The notes under the pieces: generated by a model
Database searches by the model: none
Told to the model about the DNA's origin: nothing
The model's input: only the letters and a program-made list of their open reading frames with translations
Source: Exiguobacterium sp. Helios
Lineage (GTDB): Bacteria > Bacillota > Bacilli > Exiguobacteriales > Exiguobacteriaceae
Direction of reading: 5' to 3'
Length of the DNA: 64,000 nt
Assembly (NCBI RefSeq): GCF_014524545.1
Contig: NZ_CP053557.1
Span: forward strand, 2,319,501-2,383,500
Shown here: positions 32,165 through 56,032 of the stretch, piece after piece
Layout of the letters: every line of letters starts with the position of its first letter
Position numbering within the stretch: the stretch's first letter is position 1
Translations under genes and position numbers: made by a program

Positions 32165-32266
32165 ACCTCCTCTTAGGAACTCAGACTCGCCATCACGGGC
32201 AGCGGATGCTTTAAAGACCCGGTCTGTGCGGTTGTAGTCATTTGGGTGCTTCCAAACGAACTAACG
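32165..32266 (-). promoter_or_regulatory. L21 leader (rplU autoregulatory 5' UTR)
   Basis: The leader of about 100 nt contains ACCGCACAGACC and GCTGCCCGTGATGGCGAGT, the conserved blocks of the Bacillota L21 leader, with AAGAGGAGGTG at its end. L21 is thought to bind its own leader and limit synthesis of the operon. Identification is from recalled motif blocks, not a covariance search. Confidence 0.65.
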
Positions 32267-39210: not shown

Positions 39211-39942
39211 TTAATTACCTGTAACATCGACAAACGGATCCGATTTCGGAGTCGTCTCCTGAAGCGGCGTCTGTTTATCCGGTATCAACTTGGTTAAATC
39301 CGGACGGTAGTAACTCTCGATTTCCACTGTAAAGGACATCATTTCGTCTTCAAGGACAATCGTCTGGCTCCCTGGACCCGGTTCATCCGGACCGGTCAAC
39401 TGGATTTGGCGTAAAATCGTAATCCGGTCCGTCCGTTCGATTTGTTTAAGAAAAGCCATCAGTTCAAGATAGGACGGGGCTTCGACCGTCAAAGAAGCAG
39501 GCAGTGCCGTCGCCGTTGTGGTCGCAACCGGTGTCTCTGCCGTTGCCGCAGCTTCCGTCTCGGATTCCGTCGCCATTGCACCGTCCACGGCAGGCGTTGA
39601 CTGGACCGGCGATGCAGGAGCTGCTTCCGTTCCGGTTGCGCCAAACGTGATGGCTTGGACTTTCACACCGGCAATTTGACTGGCCGCATTGATCGCATCA
39701 ATCACATCATCATTCGCCGGTACGACCGGCACCTGTTTTTGGAGGAAGCTAGATTCAGCAACATCGACTTTCTGTTCATTCGCTTTTGCCGCTTCAAGCG
39801 CCATCTGTTCCCGTTCAAGCGTTGCTTCGGTTTGCTGTAATTCCTGATACGTCGTGTACGTCGTATAACCGAAGTAGCCGAGCCCCCCGACAATCAAGAC
39901 AATCGTCAAGGCAAGAAGAATGAGACCGCTGTATCGTTTCAA
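39211..39942 (-). CDS. pilO: Type IV pilus assembly protein PilO
   Basis: PilO is an inner-membrane alignment-complex protein that pairs with PilN. The 243 residues have a short cytoplasmic start, one transmembrane helix (about 7-27), a coiled coil (about 30-60) and a C-terminal ferredoxin-like domain (YLELMAFLKQIERTDRITIL). An Ala/Thr/Glu-rich, probably disordered insert lies at about 105-150. The start is TTG overlapping the PilMN stop, with GGAGGTGG seven bases before it. Identified by topology and position more than by residues. Confidence 0.8.
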   Translation of the reverse strand: MKRYSGLILLALTIVLIVGGLGYFGYTTYTTYQELQQTEATLEREQMALEAAKANEQKVDVAESSFLQKQVPVVPANDDVIDAINAASQIAGVKVQAITFGATGTEAAPASPVQSTPAVDGAMATESETEAAATAETPVATTTATALPASLTVEAPSYLELMAFLKQIERTDRITILRQIQLTGPDEPGPGSQTIVLEDEMMSFTVEIESYYRPDLTKLIPDKQTPLQETTPKSDPFVDVTGN

Positions 39943-41684
39943 TTTTCTTCCACCTCCTCTACTTCAGTCGAAACCGGTTCGTCCGCTTCTGTGCCGGTCG
40001 TCGGTGGTTCCACCGTTTCCGTCGCTTCCGCTCCCGGATCGACCACGGCATCCGTCGTTGCATCTTCCTTCGGCGCATCGGGATCCGCCTGGTTCGTTTC
40101 CCCTTTGATGACTTCCGCCGGGACAACCGTCAGACCAAATTGCCCGATATAGCGGGGTTCTTCCGTCTCCGTCTCGTCCGTCGGCGTAATGGTCGTCGTC
40201 GGAATCTCTTCGCCGGTCGTCGGATCGATCGTCGTTGATGTGACGACTTCCGCTTCTTCATTCATCGTTTTCGTCGTGACATTCGTTAACGTCACTCCGG
40301 TAAAGGCCGTATCCGTCAACAATTGACGGTAAAAACCGTTTAACTCATCGAGCGTCTCAAACTGGGCATTCATCGTCACAAGATGATCGGCTCCATAGGC
40401 AAACTGCAGAATATAGCCGCGTTCCGGCAGATACCGCGTAATCCGTTCCAAAGCCGGCACAGCCGGACGTGGTGTCGCTTCCAGTCCGTCGACGGTTTGC
40501 TTGAGCTGCGCAACTTCTTGTTTGGCCGACTGAGCGGATTCCGATTGCAACGTCCGGACGATTTGGATCTGATTATTTGCCGTCTCGAGCCGGTCAGCAA
40601 ATTGATCGGTCTGCCAGTACAGATATCCGCCTGCCACCCCGCCGAGTAGCAGCAGAATCAGCGAGGCAATCAACGGAAACTTTGGTGCGACATCACTGTC
40701 CGGCAATAAATTAATCCGGTCTTTATGGACTGTCGCTAAACCGACGAGGGGTAAGTAAGCTTTTGGAATCGGCTGCCCCGCTACATCGAGTACATCCGGA
40801 ACTTGTTCCAACCGGACGTCAAAGTTCGTTTCGAACCGGCGTACCAGTTCCTCTTGAAACGAAAAATCTCCCGTCAGCATGACACGGCTGATTTCCCGCC
40901 CGTCACGCGCTAACGAAAAACGATAGAAATCAAGCACACGTGAAAATTCCAGTAACATCTCTTCCAGGATGAATTCGACGTTGGCATCATCTGATTGATA
41001 GCGGTAATGCAACCGGTCCTCGATGACATCGACTTCCCAGGCATTCGCGACAAATGTATCGACCGAACGTATCAGACGCGGGACTTTGTCTTCGATGATG
41101 ATCAACTGATGATTCGTCGCATTGACGTTCCAAATCAACAGATTGCTGTCGGCTTCGACTTCATACAGCGAATCGAGACCAAAAAATGTCGCCAGTGGTT
41201 GCGGTTCCGCTGCCACGAGGCGGATATGTTTTTTCCGGAATAGTTCCATGTATTGTTTTAACGCTTCGTTTGGTGCTGCATACAACATGATTTCCCGTTT
41301 ACCGTCTTCTTCGAGCAACGTGTAATCAAAATAAGGTTCTTCAAACGGTAAGACGATACTGTGTCCCAGTTCCATGAACAAATAACCGCGAATCTGATTG
41401 GTTTCGACGGTCTCCGGAATTTCAAGTTTCCGTGCCAGGACGAGTGATCCGTCAATCGCGAGGACCGCCTGTGAACCGCGGGGCACCTTCAACTTCGCTA
41501 GTAAGCTGTCAAAAATCAGATCGAGTGATGCTTCCGGTTGGAGCCATCCACCCTGAAGGGTTCCCGGAGGTAAGGAAACGACACCCCGCCGCTTAATGAC
41601 CCCCTTTTTGACGACCGCTCCAAAAATCCCGACATCTGTGAAATTAAAGTAGATATATGTACCTCTGCGCCGAGCTTGCGCCAT
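39939..41684 (-). CDS. PilM-PilN fusion protein
   Basis: The 581 residues join two pilus proteins. Residues 1-320 are an actin-like PilM domain (VLAIDGS, LGHSIVLPFEEPYFDY, TGDFSFQEELVRRFE). Then KDRINLLPD (INLLP at 324-328) is the motif that opens PilN and docks into PilM in other bacteria. A transmembrane helix (337-357), a coiled coil (360-405) and a PilN-like domain follow. The last 50 or so residues are an acidic Thr/Pro/Glu tail. It bridges the cytoplasmic and outer parts of the pilus machine. No frameshift or stop lies at the junction, so the fusion is genuine. It follows pilD and overlaps pilO. Confidence 0.87.
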   Translation of the reverse strand: MAQARRRGTYIYFNFTDVGIFGAVVKKGVIKRRGVVSLPPGTLQGGWLQPEASLDLIFDSLLAKLKVPRGSQAVLAIDGSLVLARKLEIPETVETNQIRGYLFMELGHSIVLPFEEPYFDYTLLEEDGKREIMLYAAPNEALKQYMELFRKKHIRLVAAEPQPLATFFGLDSLYEVEADSNLLIWNVNATNHQLIIIEDKVPRLIRSVDTFVANAWEVDVIEDRLHYRYQSDDANVEFILEEMLLEFSRVLDFYRFSLARDGREISRVMLTGDFSFQEELVRRFETNFDVRLEQVPDVLDVAGQPIPKAYLPLVGLATVHKDRINLLPDSDVAPKFPLIASLILLLLGGVAGGYLYWQTDQFADRLETANNQIQIVRTLQSESAQSAKQEVAQLKQTVDGLEATPRPAVPALERITRYLPERGYILQFAYGADHLVTMNAQFETLDELNGFYRQLLTDTAFTGVTLTNVTTKTMNEEAEVVTSTTIDPTTGEEIPTTTITPTDETETEEPRYIGQFGLTVVPAEVIKGETNQADPDAPKEDATTDAVVDPGAEATETVEPPTTGTEADEPVSTEVEEVEEN

Positions 41685-41702
41685 ATGTATATTCTTCCTT
41701 TC

Positions 41703-42461
41703 CTAGAGGAACAGATCGAGATAAAGCTTCACCCAATCGTCCGCGAAATAATATGTCAGTAACGTTCCGACAGCAATCGAGGGAACAAACGGAATCGGCT
41801 GTTTTCGTTCAACGCGTTTTAAGCCGAGTAAACCCAGTCCGACAATCGATCCGACGAAGGCGGAAACGAACAAGGCGATGACGACGTGTAACGGACCTAA
41901 AAAAATCCCGAGCACACCAAACAACTTGACGTCCCCTGCTCCCATCCCTTGTCGTGACGCAAGAAAGATCACGAACAATAGAAAGAATCCGACGAATCCG
42001 CCAATAATTGGATTATACCAGTTCTCGAGGGGAGAAAGGTAGCGAACAATCAGACTAATCGGTAAAAAGAATAATAAGATTTTGTTCGGAATCAACATGT
42101 AGGCAAGGTCCGACATGACGAGAATACTGAGCAGGCTCGTCAACAAAATCGACATGACGAATTGCATCGACCAACCGAATTGATAAAAGGCATAGGCGTA
42201 CATAATACCACCAAGCAGTTCAAGTACCGGATACTTGATCGAAATCGGCAACTGACACGTCCGGCATTTCCCACGCAATACCAAATACCCGATGACCGGT
42301 GTCAGCTCAAGCGGACCAAGGACATGCCCACAGTTCGGACAATGCGAGCGCGGACGGACAATTGATTCCCCGACCGGGACACGTAAGCCGACGACGTTCG
42401 TAAAGGATGTCACGAGCATTCCGATCAGAAAAAAGTAAACGGTAAAGACGACTGTCATCAT
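41703..42461 (-). CDS. pilD: Prepilin peptidase PilD/ComC
   Basis: This is an aspartic membrane protease and N-methyltransferase that cleaves prepilins before the Phe/Leu residue and methylates it. The 252 residues have an N-terminal domain with two CxxC pairs (CPNCGHVLG and CRTCQLP), then a six-helix membrane core with the catalytic aspartates in SDLAYMLIPNK and GAGDVKLFG. In B. subtilis the homologue comC lies alone between folC and maf; here it is embedded in a whole pilus locus. It probably also serves competence pseudopilins. Confidence 0.95.
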   Translation of the reverse strand: MMTVVFTVYFFLIGMLVTSFTNVVGLRVPVGESIVRPRSHCPNCGHVLGPLELTPVIGYLVLRGKCRTCQLPISIKYPVLELLGGIMYAYAFYQFGWSMQFVMSILLTSLLSILVMSDLAYMLIPNKILLFFLPISLIVRYLSPLENWYNPIIGGFVGFFLLFVIFLASRQGMGAGDVKLFGVLGIFLGPLHVVIALFVSAFVGSIVGLGLLGLKRVERKQPIPFVPSIAVGTLLTYYFADDWVKLYLDLFL

Positions 42462-42486
42462 ACAGTTCCCTCCTTAAAAAAGTTCA

Positions 42487-42513
42487 GAAAAAAACCCCCG
42501 AGATGGGGGCTCT
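42487..42513 (-). terminator. Terminator after the major pilin
   Basis: CCCCC-ATCT-CGGGGG is followed by seven T on the minus strand. It allows the pilin to be expressed well above pilD and the genes after it. Confidence 0.85.
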
Positions 42514-42517
42514 CAAC

Positions 42518-43042
42518 TTATTTTTCAACTACTCCAGCACGTTTTAAGTCTTTTGGTGGCGCTGCTGTAAAGTATGTATAATCTGTTGATGCACTTGTTA
42601 AAGTAACTGCATACTCATATGAACCATTTTTCTCAGTAACCGTCACAAATGAATCTGCATAATCTGCATCTGAATTTAAAGCATCCTTCATATCATCGAT
42701 GTATTTTTTCAATGAGTCTGTTCTTGGTGCCTCTTTTGTACCTTTAGCAACTGCATTAGCTGAAATCGGCTTTTTATTTTCGTTCACTCCAACTTTAACC
42801 GTTTCCCCAGGCTGAACTGGGTTCGAAGACGTATAAAGTTTCGCTGCTGCTACCAATTGTTTCGCATCGGATACAACGGCATCCTTACGTGAGTTTTCAA
42901 TCAATCCGCCGATGGCGACGACAGCGATTGCTGCAATGATTCCTAAAATAACGACAACAACGAGTAACTCGATCAATGTCAAGCCGCGCTCGTCACGCAT
43001 TTGTTTGGCATCGAGCCAAATCTCTTTCAGACGTTCTAACAT
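42518..43042 (-). CDS. pilA: Major type IV pilin
   Basis: The 174 residues have a long 20-residue charged leader ending in ERG, cleavage before LTLIELLVVVVILGIIAAIA, and Glu at mature position 5. The C-terminal part is a small Lys/Asp/Thr-rich globular domain. It has its own promoter and terminator inside the cluster, which suits the most abundant subunit. The gene is AT-richer than the pil genes beside it. Gly-Leu rather than Gly-Phe is used at the cleavage site. Confidence 0.9.
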   Translation of the reverse strand: MLERLKEIWLDAKQMRDERGLTLIELLVVVVILGIIAAIAVVAIGGLIENSRKDAVVSDAKQLVAAAKLYTSSNPVQPGETVKVGVNENKKPISANAVAKGTKEAPRTDSLKKYIDDMKDALNSDADYADSFVTVTEKNGSYEYAVTLTSASTDYTYFTAAPPKDLKRAGVVEK

Positions 43043-43111
43043 GTTTATTATTCCTCCCTAGTACTTTTTTACTGTTCCTGACGTATAGGTCATACTATCC
43101 AAATTGATACT

Positions 43112-43117
43112 ATTATA
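43112..43117 (-). promoter_or_regulatory. -10 element of the pilin gene
   Basis: TATAAT on the minus strand lies about 70 bases before the pilin ATG. The matching -35 position (43135-43140) reads TTCTAC, a poor match, and lies inside an inverted repeat. Confidence 0.55.
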
Positions 43118-43133
43118 GTAGCACCATATTTTT

Positions 43134-43157
43134 TGTAGAAAATGGATTTTTTCTACA
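43134..43157. repeat. Inverted repeat upstream of the pilin gene
   Basis: TGTAGAAAA (43134-43142) and TTTTCTACA (43149-43157) form a perfect nine-base inverted repeat with a six-base spacer. It covers the presumed -35 of the pilin promoter and has no T run on the minus strand, so an operator or activator site is more likely than a terminator. Confidence 0.6.
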
Positions 43158-43180
43158 TCAGGTAAATGTTTTCGCAGTTG

Positions 43181-44398
43181 TCAACTTGACTGAATATCGG
43201 AATAGATTTTGAACATCGGAACAACGACAGCGATGACAATCACACCGACGATAACCGCGAGTACGACAATCAATAACGGCTCGATGATTGACTTCAAGCG
43301 GTCGGTCGTCGTTTCAACTTCCGTTTCGTAAAAATCGGCGACTTCCGTCAACATCGAGTCGAGTCGTCCCGATTCTTCCCCAATCGCAATCATCTGTGTG
43401 ACAAGAGGTGGAAAATATTTGTTTTTCGCTAACGGCTCGTTCATCGGAATCCCCCGCGACATCGCTTCGTTGGCAGCGGCAATTCCTTTACGGATGACCC
43501 GGTTCGTGACGATGCGTTCCGTAATGTCAAGCGATGTAAGAATCGGAACCGATGCATTCAATAAGACAGCCAGTCCACGGGTCATTAACGCAATTTGTGA
43601 CTTTTGAATCAACGGACCGAACACAGGAATCATCAACAGTAAACGGTCGAAGACAACCCGTTGCCGCTCATTTTTTAAGTTAAAGTACAGTAATCCGAGT
43701 AAACCAAACACAATTAAGAGTAAGACCCACCAGTAGGCAACAAAAAAGTCAGAGACGGCGACAACGATCTTCGTGATCAACGGCAACTCACTGCCGAGCT
43801 GATCAAAAATCGAGGCGAACGTCGGAACGACGTTCAGCATCAAAAAGACAACAACACCAATGGCAACAATTGAGACGACCGCCGGATAAATCAACGCCGA
43901 GATGACTTTCCGTTTGATTTCATACTGTTTTTGGAGCTGGGTCACGATGTTATCGAGCGCTTCTTCTAGGTTTCCGCTTGCCTCACCCGCCATTGCCATA
44001 CTGACGAAAAAGGTATCAAAGACACGCGGATGTTTTTCAATCGCTTGCGAAAATTGAATCCCGCTTCGCAAGTCATCCTCAACTTCGACCAGCGCCCGTT
44101 CCAGCGGCTTTGATTCCGTCTGTTTCCGTAAGATTTCCGTCGCTTTGACAATTGAGACACCGGACCGGACGAGTGTCGCGAACTGCCGGGCATACATGAC
44201 AAGATGCTCGATTTTCGGTTTGGCAGTCAAAAATGTGATTTCCGTATTTAAGCCTTTGGACTCTTGCTTCTCAAGTAACGTCACGGCAATTTGATCCGTC
44301 CGTAAGCGTTCCGCTGCTTCCCGTTTCGTAAGTGCCGTAATTTTTCCTTTTTTACGTTTACCGGTCATCGTACGACCTTCATATTTGAAGACTGTCAT
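43181..44398 (-). CDS. pilC: Type IV pilus platform protein PilC
   Basis: PilC is the inner-membrane platform on which PilB and PilT act (GspF family). The 405 residues contain two T2SSF repeats of about 120 residues (FATLVRSGVSIVKATEIL and RGLAVLLNASVPILTSLDI) and three hydrophobic segments, the last at the C-terminus. It follows pilT by four bases. Confidence 0.95.
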   Translation of the reverse strand: MTVFKYEGRTMTGKRKKGKITALTKREAAERLRTDQIAVTLLEKQESKGLNTEITFLTAKPKIEHLVMYARQFATLVRSGVSIVKATEILRKQTESKPLERALVEVEDDLRSGIQFSQAIEKHPRVFDTFFVSMAMAGEASGNLEEALDNIVTQLQKQYEIKRKVISALIYPAVVSIVAIGVVVFLMLNVVPTFASIFDQLGSELPLITKIVVAVSDFFVAYWWVLLLIVFGLLGLLYFNLKNERQRVVFDRLLLMIPVFGPLIQKSQIALMTRGLAVLLNASVPILTSLDITERIVTNRVIRKGIAAANEAMSRGIPMNEPLAKNKYFPPLVTQMIAIGEESGRLDSMLTEVADFYETEVETTTDRLKSIIEPLLIVVLAVIVGVIVIAVVVPMFKIYSDIQSS

Positions 44399-44402
44399 TG
44401 GT

Positions 44403-45446
44403 TCACCCCGATATGTAAGGTGTCGCGGCTGATGCTGGAATCAAACCTCGACTCACTAAGTCTTGTAATGCCATCTGCATCGTCTGCATGCCGTATTGCT
44501 TCCCTGTCTGTAGGACCGATTGGATCTGATATTCTTTCCCGGTCCGGATTAAGTTTGAGACGGCGGGTGTATCAACCATGATTTCAAGTGCTGCGACACG
44601 ACCGGTTCCATCCGTTCGTGGCATCAGCCGTTGTGAGACGACACCGGCTAGAACGTTCGCGAGTTGAGCCCGAATCTGGTCTTGTTGCTCGGATGGAAAG
44701 ACGTCGATGATCCGACTGACCGTCGATGCCGCCGTCGACGTATGGACCGTCGCAAAAACTAAATGACCAGTCTCTGCTGCCGTCACCGCTGTTGAAATTG
44801 TTTCAAGATCCCGCATCTCACCTAGCAGGATGACATCTGGATCCTGGCGAAGGGCGGACCGTAAGCCGGTCGCAAAACGCGGGGCATCGATGCCGATTTC
44901 CCGCTGGTCGATCAGACTTTTCTGATGACTGTGTAAATATTCGATCGGATCTTCGAGCGTGATGATCCGCTTATACATCGTCTGGTTGATTTCATTGATC
45001 ATCGCTGCCAGTGTCGTCGATTTCCCGGAACCCGTCGGACCGGTCACGAGAATCAAGCCGTGCGGCTTCGTCAGGAAACGTTTTAAGACCGGCGGCAATG
45101 ACAATTGATCGAGTGTCGGTACTTCAGTCGGAATCGTCCGAAAGGCCATCGACAACGCCCCGCGTTGATAAAAACAATTGACGCGGTAGCGTGCCACTCC
45201 TGTCACACCAAATGAAAAATCAATATCCCGGTCCTGTTTTAACTGTAAAAACATTTCCTCGGTAATAAGGGAGCGGACGAACCCTTCGATTATGACCGGT
45301 TTCATCTTTTCTGTACCGAATGGTGTCAAGGTGCCGTTGATGCGAAAGACCGGCGGTGAACCGGCCGTCAGGTGGACATCGGATGCTTCTTTTTCTTTCG
45401 ACGATCGTAAGATATCTTCAATTTGGGCGCGCTCCATCGTACTCAT
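44403..45446 (-). CDS. pilT: Pilus retraction ATPase PilT
   Basis: PilT is the hexameric ATPase that retracts pili, giving twitching motility and DNA uptake force. The 347 residues carry Walker A VTGPTGSGKSTTLAA, the Asp box ITLEDPIEY, Walker B DPDVILLGEMRD and the His box HLVFATVHT. The short N-terminal domain fits PilT, not PilB. The ATG overlaps the pilB stop by four bases. Confidence 0.95.
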   Translation of the reverse strand: MSTMERAQIEDILRSSKEKEASDVHLTAGSPPVFRINGTLTPFGTEKMKPVIIEGFVRSLITEEMFLQLKQDRDIDFSFGVTGVARYRVNCFYQRGALSMAFRTIPTEVPTLDQLSLPPVLKRFLTKPHGLILVTGPTGSGKSTTLAAMINEINQTMYKRIITLEDPIEYLHSHQKSLIDQREIGIDAPRFATGLRSALRQDPDVILLGEMRDLETISTAVTAAETGHLVFATVHTSTAASTVSRIIDVFPSEQQDQIRAQLANVLAGVVSQRLMPRTDGTGRVAALEIMVDTPAVSNLIRTGKEYQIQSVLQTGKQYGMQTMQMALQDLVSRGLIPASAATPYISG

Positions 45447-47107
45447 TCGGAAATCACCGTCCGTAGAATTTCTTCCGTCGTCGTGATACCTTGCGCGACT
45501 TTGGCTAAACCGTCCGCCAACAATAACCGTTGTCCTTGTGATTTGACATACATCGTGATTTCACTCTCCGTTGATTGATTCATAATCATCCGTCGTAAGC
45601 TCTCATCCACCACGACGACTTCCTGTATCGCCAGACGTCCACGATAACCTGTCATATTACAAGAGGAACAGCCTCGTCCACGCATGACGGTCGTCGCTGT
45701 GATACCTTCTTGCGCAAACAACTCTTCTTCGCGCTTCGATAACGGCTGAACTTCCCCGCAGTCACGGCAAACCCGCCGGACAAGCCGCTGGGCGATCAGT
45801 CCGGTGACCGAAGCGGCCACAAGGAACGGCTCAACTCCCATATCAATCAATCGGGTAATCGAGCTGACGGCTGAATTCGTGTGTAACGTCGACAGGACGA
45901 GGTGACCGGTTAATGAAGCCCGGATCGAAATCTCGGCTGTCTCGATGTCACGAATTTCCCCGACCATGACGACGTTTGGATCCTGCCTGAGAATCGAGCG
46001 GAGTCCGCTGGCAAACGTCAGACCGATTTTCGAGTTGACCTGGACCTGATTGATGCCGTCCACTTGGTATTCGACCGGGTCTTCAACCGTAATGATATTA
46101 CGTGTTTCATCATTTAATTCATTTAAAGCCGCATACAAGGTCGATGACTTTCCTGATCCGGTTGGTCCCGTGATTAAGATAATTCCGTTTGGCCGTTTGA
46201 GCATCTCACGAAATTGTTGTTCGTTCCGTTCACTGAATCCGATTTTTGCGATCGAGATGTTCGAGTTCGAACTGTCGAGAATCCGAATGACGACTTTTTC
46301 GCCGTAGACGGTTGGTAATGTCGAGACCCGGAAATCATAGGCAACCCCATTATGTAGAAATTTAATGCGTCCATCCTGTGGTAAGCGAGTTTCCGTAATA
46401 TCCAGTTCACTCATGACTTTGATCCGGGTCGTTAAAATATTTTGAATCTGTTTCGGATAATTGTTTTCTGTACGTAATTCACCATCAATCCGGATCCGGA
46501 TCGAAAGTGACGTTTCTTGTGGATCCATATGAATATCGGATGCCCGCTGGGAAATTCCGTTCTCGAGTATTTGATTGACCAGACGGATGATTGGAGCATC
46601 TTCACGTGTAACCGTATCACGTGATGTATCCGAAATCGTCATCTCGTCTGACTCGAGTAGTTCTCGCAGTGACGAATCGATATCGTAATACTTTAAAATT
46701 GTCCGTCGGATTTCATCGCGTGTCGCAAGGCCTACCTCAATCATTAATCCTGTTTGAAGTCGCAAGTCATCAATCGCAATTAGGTCCATCGGGTCTGCCA
46801 TCGCGATGAACAGCCGATTCCCCTCGCGGTAAACCGGTACAAGCGTATGTCGTTGTGCCAGTTCCTTTGAAATCAATTTCGTTACCGCCACATCGACCGG
46901 ATAATTATACAGTTGAATGACAGGAATTTTTAATTGATGATGTAATGCTTCAATCAACTGTTGTTCCGTCAAGTGACCAAGTCGTAATAACGTATCCCCC
47001 AGTTTTTCAGATGTCCGTTTGACGGATAGCGCCTCTTCAATTTGCGCTTCCGTCACCACACTCTCTTCTAACAGCATTTCACCTAGTCGTTTTCGTTTCA
47101 TTGCCAT
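45443..47107 (-). CDS. pilB: Pilus extension ATPase PilB
   Basis: PilB powers pilus assembly. The 554 residues have an N-terminal MshEN/GspE_N domain (about 1-140), then an ATPase domain with ITGPTGSGKSSTLYA, ITVEDPVEYQVDGINQ, DPNVVMVGEIRD and HLVLSTLHTN. A zinc-binding tetracysteine element (CRDCGE and CSSCNMTGYRGR) follows. All catalytic motifs are intact. Nine bases separate it from the small membrane protein upstream. Confidence 0.95.
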   Translation of the reverse strand: MAMKRKRLGEMLLEESVVTEAQIEEALSVKRTSEKLGDTLLRLGHLTEQQLIEALHHQLKIPVIQLYNYPVDVAVTKLISKELAQRHTLVPVYREGNRLFIAMADPMDLIAIDDLRLQTGLMIEVGLATRDEIRRTILKYYDIDSSLRELLESDEMTISDTSRDTVTREDAPIIRLVNQILENGISQRASDIHMDPQETSLSIRIRIDGELRTENNYPKQIQNILTTRIKVMSELDITETRLPQDGRIKFLHNGVAYDFRVSTLPTVYGEKVVIRILDSSNSNISIAKIGFSERNEQQFREMLKRPNGIILITGPTGSGKSSTLYAALNELNDETRNIITVEDPVEYQVDGINQVQVNSKIGLTFASGLRSILRQDPNVVMVGEIRDIETAEISIRASLTGHLVLSTLHTNSAVSSITRLIDMGVEPFLVAASVTGLIAQRLVRRVCRDCGEVQPLSKREEELFAQEGITATTVMRGRGCSSCNMTGYRGRLAIQEVVVVDESLRRMIMNQSTESEITMYVKSQGQRLLLADGLAKVAQGITTTEEILRTVISE

Positions 47108-47115
47108 TTACGTTG

Positions 47116-47430
47116 TCATCCTTCCGCGTGCCATGTTTCTTCCTCGTCCAGTGGTGTCAGTTTCTGCTTTCTTTCATCCACGACACTCGTGATTGCCGTC
47201 ACAACGAGAATCGATACAACGTAACCGGCAATTACGAAAGGATTCGAAATCCAGTCAAACTTGACGATTAAATAGAGGGAAGTGACCAGGACGAGCGCCG
47301 TCAAGGACAGAATCACTTTTGCTGCCGTAGTCGTGACAAAAGGGATTTGAATCGCAAACATCAAACCACAAATGATGGTCGCTAGACCGATGATGATACC
47401 AAGTTCAATTGCTAAGTCCGTCCAGTTCAT
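47116..47430 (-). CDS. Small membrane protein of the pilus operon, unknown
   Basis: About 104 residues form three predicted hydrophobic helices (roughly 8-28, 36-56 and 64-84) and end in a charged tail (DERKQKL, then acidic residues). The ATG at 47430 has AGAGG six bases ahead; an ATG at 47436 touches that site. I recognise no family. It lies between the VanW/G5-like gene and pilB in the same transcription unit, so a pilus-related envelope role is a guess from context. Confidence 0.6.
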   Translation of the reverse strand: MNWTDLAIELGIIIGLATIICGLMFAIQIPFVTTTAAKVILSLTALVLVTSLYLIVKFDWISNPFVIAGYVVSILVVTAITSVVDERKQKLTPLDEEETWHAEG

Positions 47431-47457
47431 ATTCATCCTCTTTTCTTTTTGGCAAGA

Positions 47458-48822
47458 TCAGCCAACAGCGCCTTCCGTCGAATCATCTTCGACCGGAGAT
47501 GCCGGGTCTCCTGTCGTTGGCGTATCCGGAGTGTCCGGTACCGTCGGTTGATCCGGTGTTACAGGTTCTTCTGGTGTCGTCGTTCCGTCTGTTGTTCCAT
47601 CCGTTGAGTCAGTTGTTGAGTTATCTGTCGAGTCATTGGTTGTTTCATCATTCGTCGTCTCGTCCGTCGAGTCGGTTGACGGTTCTTCTGCCGGTGGTGT
47701 GACGACAGGCGGTAACTCTTCTTGACTGCTCTTCGTCACAATGGCTGGTGTCGCCGCATAAAAATCAAGGGCCAGTAGTCGTTTGACTTCTCCTTGATTG
47801 GATTTCGTGACACGATACAATTCAATCGACTTTCCTTCAATCCCCGACTGCGTATCACTGCTTGTTCCTGCAGACAGCGTCGCAGAATACCGTGTAATCG
47901 TCCGGTACGGAATTGTTTTTTCCGCTTCGAGTACGGCCGTGACCGTTTCTTTGAACGGTGTCCCGCGTAATTCCAGCGTGACATCACTCCCGTTCTTCGT
48001 CGCGACGACTTGGTAATTAACCGCTTGAGTGTTTCGAACGGCAAAATCAGTTTTCTCATCAATCTTGACATCATAACCAAGTGTGATGTCGTCCGGTAAT
48101 TCCTTATGCGGCATCCGTTCGACAATCTCAAATGGTGTTTTCGCAAATAGTTCATACAATTTACTGCCAATAAAGGAGGCAGCCACTGGATCCATGCCGT
48201 ACGTCTTAACATTCATCAATTGGCCGGCTTTGATGTCGACTTGAGCCATTCCGTCAATCATCTGTTCTTCTGCTGCAGAACGTGTCGTAAACGTGACACT
48301 CGAGACGACTTCTCCTGCCGGATCAATCGCTGCTGCTGTTTCAGCCGGGTCAAAGTTTCCTTCTTCCAGCTTTTTACTTGTTTTAATCAACCAGGTGTTA
48401 AACGTCTTCACCTGTTCTTCTGTATATGTAATCGGTTGTGAGGCAAGATAGGCTTCCATTGCAGTTTGATTGACAGTTACCTTTAAAGATCCGCCTTTTT
48501 TCAAAGAAGCTTGTTTGATGGATTCTTCGACCTTAAATGTCACCAGTTCGGTCGGAATCGGTAATGTCTCTTCTCCTGTTCCAACGGTCAATGGTGTTTT
48601 TTTAGACCAGGACGTGACGGCTTCCTGCACTTTCGGTTTTGCTTCTTTTCGTGTCAGTCCGCTGACTGGAACGGAACCGATTCGGGCGGTATCAGAAAAG
48701 TTTTCGATGACTGTTGCTTTGCCTGTAAAAGAAATCAAGGCAAATGAAGGAACATAGATTAGAGCAATTAACGCGACTAACAGCAACGTATGGACAGCAA
48801 AACGTTTGAAATTTATCATCAT
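47458..48822 (-). CDS. VanW/G5-like envelope protein at the head of the pilus operon
   Basis: About 454 residues from the paired ATGs at 48822/48819 (AAAGGA ahead); the frame extends to 48897 without a ribosome site. It has an N-terminal membrane anchor (about 6-29), then an extracytoplasmic domain with VPVSGLTRKEAKPKV as in VanW/YoaR-type proteins, and repeats of alpha/beta character. A G5-like module (SGIEGKSIELYRV) follows, with a final tail of some 80 residues almost wholly Thr, Asp, Pro, Glu and Ser. It probably contacts peptidoglycan and may make a passage or anchor for the pilus. Function is inferred; the family assignment is moderate. Confidence 0.6.
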   Translation of the reverse strand: MMINFKRFAVHTLLLVALIALIYVPSFALISFTGKATVIENFSDTARIGSVPVSGLTRKEAKPKVQEAVTSWSKKTPLTVGTGEETLPIPTELVTFKVEESIKQASLKKGGSLKVTVNQTAMEAYLASQPITYTEEQVKTFNTWLIKTSKKLEEGNFDPAETAAAIDPAGEVVSSVTFTTRSAAEEQMIDGMAQVDIKAGQLMNVKTYGMDPVAASFIGSKLYELFAKTPFEIVERMPHKELPDDITLGYDVKIDEKTDFAVRNTQAVNYQVVATKNGSDVTLELRGTPFKETVTAVLEAEKTIPYRTITRYSATLSAGTSSDTQSGIEGKSIELYRVTKSNQGEVKRLLALDFYAATPAIVTKSSQEELPPVVTPPAEEPSTDSTDETTNDETTNDSTDNSTTDSTDGTTDGTTTPEEPVTPDQPTVPDTPDTPTTGDPASPVEDDSTEGAVG

Positions 48823-48870
48823 CTGTTTCCTTTCCGTATGAAATAACCATTTCAGGTGTCTAGTATTTCC

Positions 48871-48878
48871 ATTATAAT
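48871..48878. promoter_or_regulatory. Overlapping divergent -10 elements of the two pilus operons
   Basis: ATTATAAT reads TATAAT on both strands (plus 48873-48878, minus 48871-48876). On the plus strand TTTCAG lies 17 bases upstream; on the minus strand the -35 match is poor. The plus start would leave a leader of about 110 bases before the first prepilin. Nothing else is seen in the 172 bases between the two starts. Confidence 0.45.
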
Positions 48879-48994
48879 GAATATTATGATGAAACATAAG
48901 TCCTACCTGACAAATACTTTCTCTACGTGTGAATACATACCTTTTTTTAATTTTCAGTCCAGAAATCCTATTGATTTAGACATGAGGTGAATCC

Positions 48995-49519
48995 GTGCCA
49001 AACAAGCAAGCTGGTTTTTCATTAATTGAAGTATTAGTCAGTATTACGATTTTATCGATTATTTCTGTATCGTTAATCAGTATCTTTTCCCAGTCCCTCG
49101 CAGCGTCAAGGGACAGTACCGAATTGACGTTTGCCAATTATTTAGCAAAGAATGCCGCCTCCTATATCGAGCGGGAAGCTATCGAGACAGAATCCGGTCC
49201 CTTTGTTTTTGAAGATTTGAAGGAACAAGCACAACAAACGATTTATCAGAATGGTTCTTTTGAAATACCGACGCCGAACACGCCGTCATGTGGTGTATCG
49301 GCTATTTGTGACTCAATCTTCAACGATGCTGAAATAAATAATCTACCGTTTGATGTAAAGTTCAGTGTCACGCCCCGTAAGATTAACGGTGAAAACGATC
49401 CAAATCTGCTTGATTTGTATATTTATGTCTATCCGGATGGACAACCGGAGCCGATTACGTCTTTGAAAGGATCGATCACCAATGCGACGCTTAATCAAAG
49501 TTTTCCCTCAACGAAATGA
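48995..49519 (+). CDS. Minor prepilin 1
   Basis: The 174 residues have a class III signal MPNKQAG with cleavage before FSLIEVLVSITILSIISVSLI, and Glu is at mature position 5. The globular part has two cysteines close together (SCGVSAICDS) that may form a disulfide. Start GTG behind GAGGTGA. It is the first gene of a plus-strand operon and overlaps the next gene by 38 bases. It likely forms part of the pilus tip initiation complex (PilV/GspI-like). Confidence 0.85.
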   Translation: MPNKQAGFSLIEVLVSITILSIISVSLISIFSQSLAASRDSTELTFANYLAKNAASYIEREAIETESGPFVFEDLKEQAQQTIYQNGSFEIPTPNTPSCGVSAICDSIFNDAEINNLPFDVKFSVTPRKINGENDPNLLDLYIYVYPDGQPEPITSLKGSITNATLNQSFPSTK

Positions 49520-50087
49520 TGGCTTTTCGCTTGTCGAGTTGCTTGTCGCCATCGTCATCGCTGCTATTTTCAGTGCCGTCATTTTGACAGTATTCATCTC
49601 CGGTACAAAAAGTTTTCAAGCGACCGGTATCATCAGTGAATTGCGGAGCGAAGCAGACAGTTCGGTTGGTTTGATATTAAATGAAATCACAGGGTTTGAT
49701 GCCATTCGAATCGACCAAGCAAACGAACTCGCATTCTACAAAAAAACGTTACCCAGTCTCAGTCAAGCAACCGGCTTACTTGAACGGTCGGCTGGTTTCG
49801 TCCCGTATAACGCGAATCAAGAAGATGTGGTCGAGCCCGTTACGTATAGATTCGACGATAAACAGACAGAACAAACGACCTTGATTTATAAGAGTCCGCT
49901 CGAAAACATCAATGAGCAGACGAGCATGCAAAAAACGTTTACCCTGTCCCGTCCGGAAACGGTCACGATTACGACAGGTGATTACCCCGGTGTCTATGTG
50001 GTCCACGGTATCTTAACGATCACCTTAACGATTCAGTCCGTCGATCAAGAAGAAACACAAACCCTCACAAGCACGATTGGCTTTTAA
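49482..50087 (+). CDS. Minor prepilin 2
   Basis: The 201 residues have a basic leader (RRLIKVFPQRNDG) cleaved before FSLVELLVAIVIAAIFSAVI, with Glu at mature position 5. The C-terminal domain is beta-rich (RFDDKQTEQTTLIY, TVTITTGDYPGVYVV), like PilW/GspJ-type minor pilins. AAAGGA lies about ten bases before the ATG, inside the previous gene. Confidence 0.85.
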   Translation: MRRLIKVFPQRNDGFSLVELLVAIVIAAIFSAVILTVFISGTKSFQATGIISELRSEADSSVGLILNEITGFDAIRIDQANELAFYKKTLPSLSQATGLLERSAGFVPYNANQEDVVEPVTYRFDDKQTEQTTLIYKSPLENINEQTSMQKTFTLSRPETVTITTGDYPGVYVVHGILTITLTIQSVDQEETQTLTSTIGF

Positions 50088-50104
50088 GAGAGAAAGGATG
50101 ACCC

Positions 50105-51673
50105 ATGCGAAAATCCGAAGAAGGTTATACTTTATTATTTGTATTAGTAACATTAACGGTGCTATCCGTTTTGGCTGTCGCGACGATTGGCATCAGTCTC
50201 CAATCCACACGACTGACAGAAATTCGTGGGACGAATATCGAAGTAGAATCAGCGACACAAAATGAATTGAAACAAGCGATTGCTGCTTTACAACAAATCG
50301 TCGCGACGACAGCCGGAACCAGTCCGACGAGTTCGTCGAAGGAGTTATTTAATGACCCGACCAATCAAATCATTTTAAAGCTTGCGACTGCAGCACCGAA
50401 CGTCAAAGTGACATTAAATGAAGCCGCATCAAATGTCCGCGTCAAAGCCTTCGATTTGACGGCACAGGTTGAAGAAACAAAAGGCGATCAGCCGACGGTC
50501 CGGAAAAAGTATGCGCAACGTGTCTATTTGTCCGCTATTCCAAGTTTCTTATATTACATTCTAGGCTCTGATAATCAAGTCATTTTAAACGGTGCCCCGC
50601 GGATTCAAGGAAATGTCTTCTCCCGGCAACCGTTACAAGTATCCGCGTCACCAAACTTCATCTACAATGGCGCAACCGGCTCCTACACGGATAAAACAGC
50701 CCGTGCCTATATTGATGGTCAAGTCAAAGTCTTCCAGCCAAAGGATCAGCCTTTATTGAGCTGTCGTGACTTCTTATCTTGTGATACGAGTGTATTCGAT
50801 CCGACCGTCAAGACAGACCTGATCGCAACGAAAGAAGCACTGGTGCCTTTCGATTTTGAATTTGCCTTGAATGATTTTTTAAATATTCCAAGTACAACAC
50901 CACTTGCGACATTGCCCGGATATTTGCGGGCTCAACCTATCAAACAAGCTGTCTTAACGGGACCTTTTTTGAATGAACTCAGTACAGACAAACAGTTGAT
51001 TCGTCCGGCACCAACAGAAAACAATACAGTGACAATCACTGATGATATCGTTAAAGCCTCCATGGAACCCCTCATCATTGATGGAAACTTAACCATTTCC
51101 TCTTTAAATCCGGTGAATCAACCACTTGAAATCAAACGCCCGATGATTGTTCTCGGTAATCTATTGATTCGAGGAAATGTCAGCTTTGCGACGACGATAT
51201 TTTCGACGGGCTCGAGTCGACTCGATGATGCAAATATCCAAGGAATCGCCAGTTCGTCGAATCAAAATACGTTGATTCTTCTCAGTAAAGGAAGCCTGAC
51301 GATTAATCGTGTGAATAAGTTTTCAACACCACAAACAACCAAACCTGATATGAGTGCTTTTTTATACAGTGATGATCCTGCCTTGAATCGAATTTATTCG
51401 GTCGGTTCTACGATGAACCTGCAAGGCGGAATCTTTACGAAAGGTATTCTCGAAGTCAATGCCTACCGTGGAACGCTGGATTTACCGGAAAACAGCTTCC
51501 CGCAAGATGTAACAGTACTCGAGACCTTGATGAAAGCCAAGCAATCCGCGGACGCTGAAAAATCCCGCCTTCGTCTGACCTATGACGCCAGTGTTCTTCA
51601 AAACCCGACGGCAATGCTTCCGCTCAGCCGAGCCGTTCAATTATATGTTGAAACACCTAAACGCCTTCCATGA
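50105..51673 (+). CDS. PilX-like large prepilin-type protein
   Basis: The 522 residues start MRKSEEG, a type III leader, then YTLLFVLVTLTVLSVLAVATIGISL. Mature position 5 is Phe, not Glu, as in PilX/GspK-type tip subunits that do not need Glu5. A long extracellular part includes repetitive beta segments with regular hydrophobic spacing (GNLLIRGNVSFATTIFSTGS; TLILLSKGSLTINRV), like a right-handed beta-helix. AGAAAGGATG precedes the ATG. It is the last gene of the prepilin operon and the most likely tip element. Confidence 0.75.
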   Translation: MRKSEEGYTLLFVLVTLTVLSVLAVATIGISLQSTRLTEIRGTNIEVESATQNELKQAIAALQQIVATTAGTSPTSSSKELFNDPTNQIILKLATAAPNVKVTLNEAASNVRVKAFDLTAQVEETKGDQPTVRKKYAQRVYLSAIPSFLYYILGSDNQVILNGAPRIQGNVFSRQPLQVSASPNFIYNGATGSYTDKTARAYIDGQVKVFQPKDQPLLSCRDFLSCDTSVFDPTVKTDLIATKEALVPFDFEFALNDFLNIPSTTPLATLPGYLRAQPIKQAVLTGPFLNELSTDKQLIRPAPTENNTVTITDDIVKASMEPLIIDGNLTISSLNPVNQPLEIKRPMIVLGNLLIRGNVSFATTIFSTGSSRLDDANIQGIASSSNQNTLILLSKGSLTINRVNKFSTPQTTKPDMSAFLYSDDPALNRIYSVGSTMNLQGGIFTKGILEVNAYRGTLDLPENSFPQDVTVLETLMKAKQSADAEKSRLRLTYDASVLQNPTAMLPLSRAVQLYVETPKRLP

Positions 51674-51677
51674 CATA

Positions 51678-51717
51678 CAAAAACACGGCATCCTTTTTAT
51701 GAGGATGTCGTGTTTTT
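51678..51717. terminator. Bidirectional terminator between the prepilin operon and the ankyrin gene
   Basis: AAAAACACGGCATCC / GGATGTCGTGTTTTTT with a nine-base loop and flanking A and T runs. Confidence 0.92.
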
Positions 51718-51719
51718 TG

Positions 51720-52409
51720 TTACTTAAATGATTCTGCCCCGTAGTTGTTTGCTATTTTTTTAACTTGTTTCGTGTTTGCTGAGGCCCCACTCGTTTTTAA
51801 CAATTGGTATAAGTCGGTCCGATTTTGTTTAACGGTCTCATAAATCGGTGGATCTGTTCCTTTGTCTGGAACAGCGCCTGCTGCGAGTAGCAACTCCATC
51901 GCTTCTTGATTTTGATCGACTGTCGCATAATAAAGCGGTGTATGACCAAATCGATCCAATTGATTCAGCTGACTTTTTGAAGCTTGTTTGACGAGTAAAT
52001 CATAAGCATCAACAGAACGATTGATACTTGTTGCGACATGCAAAACATTTTGTTTGTTCTTATTTACTTGTTTCATCGAAGCGCCCGCCGCTAACCATTG
52101 TTTGACGATATCGGTCGGGGCAAACTGAGCGACATAAAACCAATTTTGTTGATTTTTGGCACTTGTCCGGTCTAACAAAACAAGTGCTTTTTCATACTCA
52201 AGCGTTTCTTGAAATTTCCGAATGTATCGGTTTCGTTCTTTTGTTGATAAATCAACCGTCGCTACAGCCTGTTGCAACTTAGTGGCATCACTCACCTTTA
52301 GGCTCTCTTCAAACGTTTGTTGATTTCGATAATCAATTAACAGATAGGTCGTTCCTCCAATTCCAACTAAGAACAGGAGAACGACGAGCATGATTTTTTT
52401 TCGTGTCAC
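51720..52409 (-). CDS. Membrane-anchored ankyrin-repeat protein
   Basis: The 229 residues have an N-terminal transmembrane helix (about 5-25), a helical linker, and at least three ankyrin-like repeats (NKQNVLHVATSIN, DRFGHTPLYYATVDQNQEAMELLLAAGA, then a degenerate one). Ankyrin repeats bind other proteins. The gene starts 15 bases after the large secreted protein and is probably co-transcribed. In two-gene units of this kind the ankyrin protein often protects against or chaperones its partner; that is only a suggestion here. Confidence 0.8.
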   Translation of the reverse strand: MTRKKIMLVVLLFLVGIGGTTYLLIDYRNQQTFEESLKVSDATKLQQAVATVDLSTKERNRYIRKFQETLEYEKALVLLDRTSAKNQQNWFYVAQFAPTDIVKQWLAAGASMKQVNKNKQNVLHVATSINRSVDAYDLLVKQASKSQLNQLDRFGHTPLYYATVDQNQEAMELLLAAGAVPDKGTDPPIYETVKQNRTDLYQLLKTSGASANTKQVKKIANNYGAESFK

Positions 52410-52424
52410 GTCGCTTGCTCCTCT

Positions 52425-55400
52425 TTAATACACATCCGTATCACTTTCTCCTGTTGATCCGTCAGATGAAATCGTGACTTTAAAGGTTGTCGTCAACGGT
52501 TGCTTCTCTTTTTCCCCGTCTTTCAATACTTCAAAAACACTCTTGTCTTCTTTTAAGGCAGTCACTTTGATTCGGGCAACACCCGGACGAAGAGCCTTTA
52601 GCGTCTGAGCAGTCGCATCCGTCTTGACGTATTCTTTTCCTTGCATGACTTCGAGACGATAGAAACGTTCTGTCGTCGTAACGGGCAACCAATTGAGAAG
52701 CGGGCGTTTTTGATCATCTTGTAACGTCATCGTCAAATCATTTGCCGTCAACGTCAATGGATTTTCACGCACATTGATTTTTGTTACAGCACGGGTATCC
52801 GGGAAGTCACTTAGTTGTAATACCGCATCGACTGGACCGTTTGGAGTCCCGGTCAATCCTTTGACGGTATATCCGGTACCGGTTGCAGTCAATTCAATGG
52901 CATCACTGATTTTAGAAAGAACAAACGGTAAGCGGATATCCGGCGAAAACGTTGCGGTCACATTTTGAGTCGTTCCCGCCCATAGTTCCAAGTTGCTTGG
53001 ATTCACAGTTAGTTCCGGAACCTTGACTTCAATCGTATAAACTTGTGATTGCGCCAAGTAGGTCGTTGCGCCTGCTGTAGCTGGTACGACCGCCTGCACA
53101 GTCAGCATACCGGGTTTGACACCCGTTAAAGTCAACGTATCCGTTTCTTTTCCTTTCGATTCAACCGATCCAGGATTCGTCACTATCCATTTGATCGGTG
53201 CATCCGTTCCAGATAACATGATGGCATCCCCGGTCATTGCCTTCGTTTGTCCCACGTACAACACATTCGGAACGTCACGGACAATCAGTCCGCCAAATAC
53301 ATCATTGATGGTCAATTTAGAGGTTGCGACCAATTCTTTGCCATTTGCAACAGGGACAATCAATTTAATATCCGTCGTGCCGATTTTTTTCGGCACAATG
53401 ATTCCCTCTTGGTTGATGGTTGCAATGTCCGTGTCTGCAATCGACCACTTCAACGTCCCGTATTCACTACCTGCTGGACTAATCTCCGGCAAAACTTTAT
53501 AAGACGGTGTATTGAGATCGATACGAACCGAGGGAATTTTAGCTTCTGTTGCATACGATTTTGATAACGCATATCCTAGGACCTGGAAAGACTGTGTGTC
53601 ATTCGCAACACTTGTGAATCGATCTCCGGTTGAATTGGAGCGATAGACGTTTTTATTTGATGTTAAAGTATTATCTTTTTTATCAAGTACATACGTTCCA
53701 GCATCTTCCTTTGCCCGAACAGTTACTTTAAACGTAATCTCCGATTGGCTCGAAATCCACTTACCTGAACCTATGTCTTCCCGGTATTCTATTCCTTTAA
53801 ATGCTCCCGATACTGTTTGATTAGTCACAACTGCATCTTCTATACCGGTTGTCGATAAAATTTCAAGATTATTAGGAAGCAATTCTTTGAACTTAATGTC
53901 CTCCATTTTAACGACGTACGCTTCGTTATTTGAAACATTATCCCCGATTGCATATGTTCGTGAAATCGGTTCCGGTTTAATAGTATATGTGATGGTTGCC
54001 ATTTCGCCTTGAGGAATTGTTGTAGGATTAATTGACCGCTGTAACGTAAAGGGCGAAGAAGATGACGGCTTAACCACTTGAACCGTTCGGGTTTCAATAG
54101 TTTTTGCGCCACGTTCATCTTCTGCCTCAATTCGAATAATCGCAGAAGTTTTCCCAACTAATTTAGCATCAAATGTTTGACTGACAAATGAGTTATTCTG
54201 AAGTTTATTGTTTTCGTATACTTTTTCGTTATCAATATAGATTCGTGTTTTTAGTACCCGATCGCGTAAGTCATAATCATTTACTTTATACGAAATCGTG
54301 AGTGGTTCATTGTTCAAATAACTTGCTTGATTGTTAGGCAAGATGTTTTTAATCAATGGTTTATGGTTTGCGCCAATGAATGCCCGGTACATCGTGTTCG
54401 AAAACAATTCTTTTTCCTGCTGTTGACTGAATGTCGAGGTATGTCCCGCACCTGAATAGGTAATGTTCCCTTTCGTATACATATAATAATGATTTCGGGC
54501 ATCACCAATCGTTCGACCGGCATCCTGGTTCGAGGCGGCAACACTATTTTCGCGAATGTTATACCATGGAATTAAATCTGATTGCTCCAAGTCCAGTCCA
54601 AAGTACTGGTTATGTGTCGTTGCAATTAAGACACTGCTTCCTAACGTGAAGGGATAGGATGTCATGACACCATCATTTTGCTTGACCGCTTGTCCTGAAG
54701 TACGCGGCGCCGCATATCCCATGTTCGTAAAATTCTTTTGCCCTGCTAAATCAGCAAATTTCTTTTCCCAGAACAGCTCGGGAATCGTCGATTGATTTGG
54801 GCGAAAAATCGTGTCATGAGACAACATCAGTCCTTGCCCCGTATTTGTAAATCCAAGGATCGCATTTGATGCAGCATCACTCAAAGAAGCCGCTCCGTAA
54901 GAATCTTGGAAACCAAAAATCAACATATCGTAAGCTGTGTTTAAATTCTTAGTCGAATAGGTTTGATTAAATGTGTCTGCAGTGATCACTTCGACATTAA
55001 AGTCATAAAATCCATCCTGTTTCAATAACGTTCCAGTATTCATGAAGCCGTTAATCGATCCAGTCGTTCCACTCCGAGTCACTTGAAGAATTTTTGCTTC
55101 CGCAATCTGATCTTTCATCAAAAAACTACCGGTTTTATAATCTGTCAACCCGTCACTACTGGAAACGCGTATCATCCAGTTTCGTGGACCGGTATAGCTC
55201 GGAGCATTAAAATTATAGCTCAGCGTACCTGTTTTTCCAGCAGGCTTTTCATCCACTTTTTCCGACTCCTCAAATTGATCATTGCTGTCAAAATCAATGA
55301 AGAGTTGCGCTAGTTGGTTCGTATTTTCAACACTGGTCGTATAGGTAAAATCAATCGGTACGTTTGGAACAGCCGTCGTACTTTTATCAACGTCTGTCAA

Positions 55401-55994
55401 AACTGTTCCCTGTTGTTGCGCAGAAGCCCGCTCAAGACGAGGACGAACGATTTTCTGTGCTTTTAATTTTGTAATGATCGTCGCCATGTCGGTATAGACA
55501 GGTACATCTTTAAAAATCAAATTAAAATTGCTAGATGTTTGTGCTAAAACATCTTGATGCAAAAAGACTGGTAATCCTTTTTTGATGTATGCATTTTTAA
55601 TTTCGTTCGCTTTTAACTTCGTAATATCATTTTCAATTTTATTTGTATTATGATTTTTTTTCGTATCCGAAATCGTCATCGAATAACGATCTGTACCCGA
55701 AAATGCAGACGAATCAAAGACAATCGCATCAAATGCTCCGTCAAGTGGAAAACGGGAGGCATTCAGTTCCTTAACGGTCATCATCTTAATTTCATATTTA
55801 GTTGTATCCAATCCCGTCAACATCGATGTGATGACAGTATTCGGATCGATGCGATTTGTTGCTGACCAGGCATCCCGGATTTCTAATATCTTAAACTTCT
55901 CTCCGGTTGCTGCCTTTGTATATGGTGGTTGTATATACGTAATACTAGTAAATATCAATAAGCTGACTAAAAACAGACGTACCCAACGTTTCAT
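52425..55994 (-). CDS. Large secreted DUF5057-like protein with Ig-like repeats
   Basis: About 1,189 residues. A Sec signal peptide (1-30, ending YTKAA) is followed by a N-terminal half of DUF5057 type with two related segments (KFKILEIRDA at about 32; AKILQVTRSGTTGSINGFM at about 300) that resemble DUF4350-like Rossmann folds. Then come Ig-like and BIG2-like beta domains (about 540-1170). No LPXTG or membrane anchor is seen at the C-terminus. The ATG at 55994 is nine bases after GAGGAG; that at 56000 is too close. The gene is visibly AT-richer than the housekeeping genes and lies between folC and the pilus block. A surface adhesin or pilus accessory role is inferred. Confidence 0.75.
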   Translation of the reverse strand: MKRWVRLFLVSLLIFTSITYIQPPYTKAATGEKFKILEIRDAWSATNRIDPNTVITSMLTGLDTTKYEIKMMTVKELNASRFPLDGAFDAIVFDSSAFSGTDRYSMTISDTKKNHNTNKIENDITKLKANEIKNAYIKKGLPVFLHQDVLAQTSSNFNLIFKDVPVYTDMATIITKLKAQKIVRPRLERASAQQQGTVLTDVDKSTTAVPNVPIDFTYTTSVENTNQLAQLFIDFDSNDQFEESEKVDEKPAGKTGTLSYNFNAPSYTGPRNWMIRVSSSDGLTDYKTGSFLMKDQIAEAKILQVTRSGTTGSINGFMNTGTLLKQDGFYDFNVEVITADTFNQTYSTKNLNTAYDMLIFGFQDSYGAASLSDAASNAILGFTNTGQGLMLSHDTIFRPNQSTIPELFWEKKFADLAGQKNFTNMGYAAPRTSGQAVKQNDGVMTSYPFTLGSSVLIATTHNQYFGLDLEQSDLIPWYNIRENSVAASNQDAGRTIGDARNHYYMYTKGNITYSGAGHTSTFSQQQEKELFSNTMYRAFIGANHKPLIKNILPNNQASYLNNEPLTISYKVNDYDLRDRVLKTRIYIDNEKVYENNKLQNNSFVSQTFDAKLVGKTSAIIRIEAEDERGAKTIETRTVQVVKPSSSSPFTLQRSINPTTIPQGEMATITYTIKPEPISRTYAIGDNVSNNEAYVVKMEDIKFKELLPNNLEILSTTGIEDAVVTNQTVSGAFKGIEYREDIGSGKWISSQSEITFKVTVRAKEDAGTYVLDKKDNTLTSNKNVYRSNSTGDRFTSVANDTQSFQVLGYALSKSYATEAKIPSVRIDLNTPSYKVLPEISPAGSEYGTLKWSIADTDIATINQEGIIVPKKIGTTDIKLIVPVANGKELVATSKLTINDVFGGLIVRDVPNVLYVGQTKAMTGDAIMLSGTDAPIKWIVTNPGSVESKGKETDTLTLTGVKPGMLTVQAVVPATAGATTYLAQSQVYTIEVKVPELTVNPSNLELWAGTTQNVTATFSPDIRLPFVLSKISDAIELTATGTGYTVKGLTGTPNGPVDAVLQLSDFPDTRAVTKINVRENPLTLTANDLTMTLQDDQKRPLLNWLPVTTTERFYRLEVMQGKEYVKTDATAQTLKALRPGVARIKVTALKEDKSVFEVLKDGEKEKQPLTTTFKVTISSDGSTGESDTDVY

Positions 55995-56032
55995 CTCCAT
56001 CGTCTCCTCGTCTTAAGATCATGCAATCTAGG

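Follow-up and report, generated by a model that had tools for sequence, protein, structure and literature searches.

The type IVa pilus locus of Exiguobacterium sp. Helios encodes a VanW-family protein without the catalytic cysteine motif

The pilus genes of Exiguobacterium are not new: the 2011 survey by Imam et al. (PMC3244431) records a single pil operon and a single com operon for E. sibiricum. The Gram-positive Streptococcus sanguinis builds its pili from 10 proteins, with VanW not among them (PMC6916266), and how type IV pili pass the thick Gram-positive wall has been stated to be unknown (PMC13192262). In 2024 VanW proteins of Clostridioides difficile were recognized as L,D-transpeptidases that have PG4 domains and a Cys-His-small-residue triad (PMC12729407 and PMC11986978); some members of the family are inactive, and a 2025 review lists their role as unknown (PMC12729407). 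Here we describe a pil locus of Exiguobacterium sp. Helios (positions 39211–51673 of the 64,000-nucleotide stretch analysed, hereafter the window: contig NZ_CP053557.1, positions 2,319,501 to 2,383,500), in which a VanW/G5 protein is encoded next to the pilus motor genes. We consider it probable, with real room for doubt, that a type IVa pilus locus common to the whole genus is present here and that its VanW protein is a catalytically dead, membrane-anchored, peptidoglycan-binding accessory at the pilus base.

On the minus strand the genes lie in the order pilO, pilM-pilN, pilD, the pilin gene, pilC, pilT, pilB, a gene for a protein of 106 amino acids (aa) and vanW; three prepilin-type genes occupy the plus strand. 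The sequence-only reading had placed a complete type IV pilus set here, and open-reading-frame, Pfam and NCBIfam searches recovered all the genes that it named, each in its place. From vanW downstream, the gap to the 106-aa gene is 21 bp and that to pilB 8 bp, so both genes sit in the pilB operon as had been proposed, vanW being its first gene, and the next two gaps are –4 and +4 bp. Since these gaps are short, vanW through pilC fit a single operon; 138 bp precede the pilin gene, and the later gaps are 56, 18 and –4 bp. Neither vanW nor the 106-aa gene is named in the pilus papers found, in keeping with the view that they stand outside the standard parts list.

The VanW protein (47458..48822, minus strand; Pfam G5 5.5e-6, VanW 6.7e-6) consists, in order, of an N-terminal membrane helix, a PG_binding_4-like N-terminal domain, a VanW domain, a G5 domain and a tail rich in Thr, Asp and Pro but devoid of Lys and Arg. 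The annotated open reading frame (ORF) begins at 48897; 48822 is the more likely start, because an AAAGGA ribosome site precedes the inner ATG, a TATAAT lies within the longer reading and the extra 25 aa are absent in relatives. PF04294 matched the protein with 26.1 bits against a cut-off of 27 and passed it in the genome search (28.2 bits), covering only the second half of the profile (62–129 of 130), and this was the only PF04294 match in the genome. The closest named match, at 96%, is from E. sibiricum 255-15. Among 25 aligned relatives, two of which (L049 and L070) are not adjacent to pilB, Pfam recognized VanW in 25, G5 in 21 and PG_binding_4 in 9. An AlphaFold model built from 8 close relatives reached a predicted local distance difference test (pLDDT) score of 42 and was not used.

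The VanW protein was found throughout the genus (19 of 19 genomes) and in every one of the 19 genomes sampled from the sister genus. The wider distribution was followed in samples of Bacilli genomes. By single-sequence search it occurred in 21 genomes of the class-level sample, lying no more than 6 kb from pilT in 19 of them (chance about 3e-45), and neighbourhood maps place vanW immediately upstream of pilB across many families. In a set of 46 loci with pilB, pilT and pilC, vanW adjoins pilB (<1.5 kb) in 31 and is not adjacent in 15; the set deliberately mixed VanW-bearing and VanW-less loci, and 31/46 is not a frequency. In a tree of PilB, PilT and PilC, a single clade of 33 rows takes in 29 of the 31 loci with VanW, the other two (L058 and L086) lying in a distant lineage. 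VanW is encoded beside pilB in 20 of 47 pil loci near folC or maf (16 plus those of G074, G130, G136 and G146), and 12 such loci examined lack it and are complete in all other respects.

The Cys of the GGGxCQ motif was taken as the catalytic one, because that Cys and one downstream His are invariant in canonical VanW members. The window protein lacks the motif, with Ser241 in the Cys column, and retains His264. The motif Cys is absent from 26 of 27 pilB-adjacent VanW proteins, of which 18 have lost both Cys and His, and is kept in 44 of 47 non-pilus relatives (33/33 first compared and 11/14 lower-scoring, one fragment being excluded; Fisher 1.4e-15). In a tree of VanW proteins, pil-linked and other members are separated by 2 changes. 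Since the presumed catalytic Cys is lost, a structural role is favoured over an enzymatic one.

The 106-aa membrane protein (47116..47436, minus strand), with 3–4 hydrophobic segments and a sub-threshold Pfam match only, is conserved in both Exiguobacterium genera. A three-helix protein, most often bearing a long acidic tail, adjoins vanW in many other loci. The slot and topology are alike, and homology between the two was considered but not supported, as no sequence relation was detectable (hhalign 1–7%); orthology is thus unproven. Elsewhere a PRC-barrel-type protein adjoins vanW and a multi-helix protein (L034 at 10201, by Pfam; L049 at 8121 and L065 at 11489, by phmmer relation), and in L049 this trio persists between folC and maf without pilB.

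Several roles for VanW may be considered. The sequence-only reading had suggested that VanW and the small membrane protein replace the Gram-negative secretin, and the outward-facing, membrane-anchored architecture of VanW, the strict pilB linkage in one large clade and the unexplained route across the wall (PMC13192262) all agree with a wall conduit required for Gram-positive pili to emerge. However, VanW is no constant part of complete monoderm pil loci, being missing beside pilB in the 15 noted above, and the 106-aa protein is unrelated in sequence to the three-helix proteins beside vanW elsewhere. Since S. sanguinis also makes pili with only ten proteins, none of them VanW (PMC6916266), VanW is not a universal substitute for the secretin, and we regard an obligatory conduit as unlikely; the part of the idea that may stand is a wall-anchoring role confined to certain lineages. 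An active enzyme remodelling the wall at the pilus exit, like the role proposed for LytF in S. sanguinis, would be in line with the true L,D-transpeptidases in the family and with the streptococcal wall hydrolase that helps pilus extrusion (PMC13192262), but the motif losses in the pilB-adjacent copies and the partial deletion of the VanW domain in the window protein make it very improbable. We give a little more weight, while still doubting it, to the possibility that vanW is an envelope gene that has no part in the pilus and only shares a transcript with pilB: L049 and L122 do retain vanW between folC and maf with no pilB there, but the tight linkage spans many families and the loss of the catalytic motif is specific to pil-linked copies.

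A dead, wall-binding accessory at the pilus base thus remains our preferred reading, and several observations weigh against it. L049 and L122 retain vanW apart from pilB, although both hold pil genes elsewhere, and the pilB-adjacent copy of L086 keeps both Cys and His. The Cys column of the window protein falls within a deletion of about 25 aa, so that Ser241 may not be its exact equivalent, and the non-pilus comparison set was drawn partly from top-scoring PF04294 matches, which biases it towards intact motifs, the lower-scoring ones having been added as a check. PG_binding_4 does not pass the Pfam cut-off in the window protein itself, and with so poor a structure model the case for peptidoglycan binding has to be argued from the relatives, 9 of 25 of which match. 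In addition, none of the papers found showed pili in Exiguobacterium experimentally. An extended account is more tentative, and we would put it at somewhat below even chances: a VanW-type L,D-transpeptidase may have been recruited to the pil operon in a large clade of Bacilli, have lost catalysis and now act, with a three-helix partner, as a dedicated peptidoglycan collar, i.e. a lineage-specific module for crossing the wall.

The sequence-only reading had also regarded the locus as inserted at the comC position between maf and folC, where B. subtilis has comC alone. Distribution was scored in 113 other class-level Bacilli genomes, with pilT counted at the site when no more than 25 kb from folC or maf: 47 have pilT there, 20 have it elsewhere, 15 have only the prepilin peptidase gene (comC) and 31 have neither. 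The usual order is folC, one or more variable genes, divergent minor pilin genes, vanW, pilB, pilT, pilC, pilin, pilD, pilM, pilN, pilO, often a gene for a one-helix protein, and maf. The one-helix protein gave a weak SPOR match in the one genome tested, which fits the position of SpoIIB in B. subtilis. In a PilD tree the comC-only genomes appear at no fewer than four places among pil-bearing ones, and their grouping in a single clade was rejected (approximately unbiased test, 2e-83, with long branches present). Partial remnants also occur at the site, L079 holding only pilT and pilD. A recent insertion would suit the 15 sampled genomes with comC only, but this distribution, the nesting and the remnants speak against it, and a search of plasmid records for the VanW protein, which might have pointed to a mobile-element origin, gave no match; we consider it scarcely credible. 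The better reading, based on the distribution and the remnants and with the PilD tree unrooted, is that the folC-maf pil locus is widespread and has been repeatedly reduced. In L060, L067, L079–L082 and L085, pilT (often with the prepilin peptidase gene) is kept at the site with no pilB there.

The remaining products constitute the pilus machine. An extension ATPase, a platform protein and a prepilin peptidase are encoded together with PilM, PilN, PilO and the retraction ATPase PilT, which is the complement of a type IVa system. PilB (45443..47107, minus strand as are all genes up to PilO; PF00437) has an MshEN domain (PF05157) with the MshE-type motif for cyclic di-GMP (c-di-GMP) (NF053729, 55.2 bits against a cut-off of 38), and 27 GGDEF matches were found in the genome. 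The presence of PilT (44403..45446), asserted in the sequence-only reading, was borne out by TIGR01420 (472.7 bits, cut-off 319.1), with the NLIR motif core and Walker A. PilC (43181..44398; PF00482, 1.1e-61), PilD (41703..42461) and PilO (39211..39942; PF04350) exceed their Pfam cut-offs. The major pilin candidate (174 aa, 42518..43042) has the class III signal G^LTLIE and matches PF07963 and TIGR02532. In the PilM-PilN fusion (39939..41684) the matches to TIGR01175 (4.5e-8) and PF11104 (6.9e-5) are below cut-off; PilM is supported by synteny and profile iteration, and the separate pilM and pilN genes of other Bacilli align to the fusion, PilN corresponding to the C-terminal half. PilD is the sole PF06750 match in the genome, and since a separate ComGA-type ATPase is also encoded, it probably serves both the pil and com systems.

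On the plus strand are a GspI/PilV-like minor prepilin (48995..49519; TIGR02523 3.7e-8, below cut-off), a GspJ-like one (49482..50087; TIGR01711 0.0025, below cut-off) and a large third prepilin-like protein (50105..51673). The first two, like the major pilin, pass the PF07963 cut-off for N_methyl motifs; the third is recognized by motif only (G^YTLLF, Glu5 absent), and was placed as a GspK-type member because of its position and the missing Glu5, the same slot being filled likewise in most Bacilli pil loci. A bidirectional, terminator-like 17-bp stem (51679..51717), convergent in placement, lies at the end of this operon. Promoter-like matches in the locus were no better than chance, and an Rfam scan of the window detected no c-di-GMP riboswitch in the locus; its matches elsewhere were a 6S RNA (4637–4826), a T-box leader (10185–10408) and an L21 leader (32173–32243).

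From these parts a working model may be drawn. PilB, probably tuned by c-di-GMP through MshEN, would extend a filament of the 174-aa pilin and PilT would retract it, while PilD would mature all the prepilins and presumably ComGC too. PilMN and PilO may form an assembly sub-complex, and the three divergent prepilins a tip complex. VanW, a putative former L,D-transpeptidase, would most likely serve as a collar or tether, anchored in the membrane and binding peptidoglycan, by which the base of the pilus is fixed to the wall or the filament is led through it.

The folC-maf interval also holds, outside the coordinates given in the sequence-only reading, an ankyrin protein and a DUF5057/Big_2 secreted protein (51720–56000). 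The membrane-anchored ankyrin-repeat protein (51720..52409, minus strand; PF12796 4.5e-17), whose gene separates the minor-pilin operon from that for DUF5057, is conserved in the genus. The DUF5057/Big_2/GEVED protein (52425..56000, minus strand) is a candidate pilus-associated adhesin, having homologues that adjoin pil genes in other families; that it is a tip adhesin is a guess from its position. Several families of Bacilli have DUF5057/Big_2 secreted proteins encoded next to their pil genes (L046 142–4416, L048 382–4377, L070 and L071). What lies between folC and the minor pilins differs in other Bacilli, being a DUF5057 relative, a VWA-Ig protein or a GAF-GGDEF cyclase; this suggests that the slot is a variable one for adhesins or regulators. 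The membrane GAF-GGDEF diguanylate cyclases there (L035 4239–5951, L036 12829–14544) match the MshEN domain of PilB. A literature search for DUF5057 yielded no paper, and a PDB sequence search with the VanW and DUF5057 proteins gave no significant match. Residues 30–560 of the DUF5057 protein were modelled with a pLDDT of 54, and a PDB fold search gave TM-scores of only 0.1–0.2 of the query, so no assignment was made.

As to novelty, the sequence-only reading had conceded that its proposal would fail if the locus were shared unchanged by relatives and already characterized there. The pil locus is indeed common in Bacilli and tabulated since 2011, whereas neither the VanW-pilB linkage nor the loss of the catalytic motif was found in the open-access literature searched, outside which most subscription journals lie. 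A 2026 review matching VanW and pilB did so through the author name VanWagoner, and the other matches had titles on different subjects. A pilB-linked, motif-less VanW is a concrete candidate for the wall passage that can be knocked out, in an easily grown non-model host. If the proposed role is true, the enzymatically inactive VanW proteins, to which PMC12729407 assigns no known role, would gain a function.

Four described systems are closest. The pil operons of E. sibiricum 255-15, Geobacillus and Bacillus sp. NRRL B-14911 (PMC3244431) are loci of the same kind, for which the accessible part of that survey mentions neither VanW, the three-helix protein and DUF5057 nor the folC-maf position. 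The type IVa pilus of S. sanguinis (PMC6916266) shares the core of major pilin, three minor pilins, PilD, platform protein, PilB- and PilT-type motors and PilMNO, but has no VanW in its essential set, and its large PilO has itself been proposed as a wall part. LdtCd4 and LdtCd5 of C. difficile (PMC12729407) share the membrane helix, the VanW domain and a PG4-type domain, which in the window protein stays below the Pfam cut-off; the window protein differs in its missing catalytic Cys motif, its G5 domain and its linkage to pilus genes. The Dickeya type II secretion system, a related machine, has in OutB (PMC12274547) a scaffold that is anchored in the membrane and bound to the wall; OutB offers an analogy only, since it is unrelated in sequence, is attached covalently to peptidoglycan through an Lpp box and serves a secretin.

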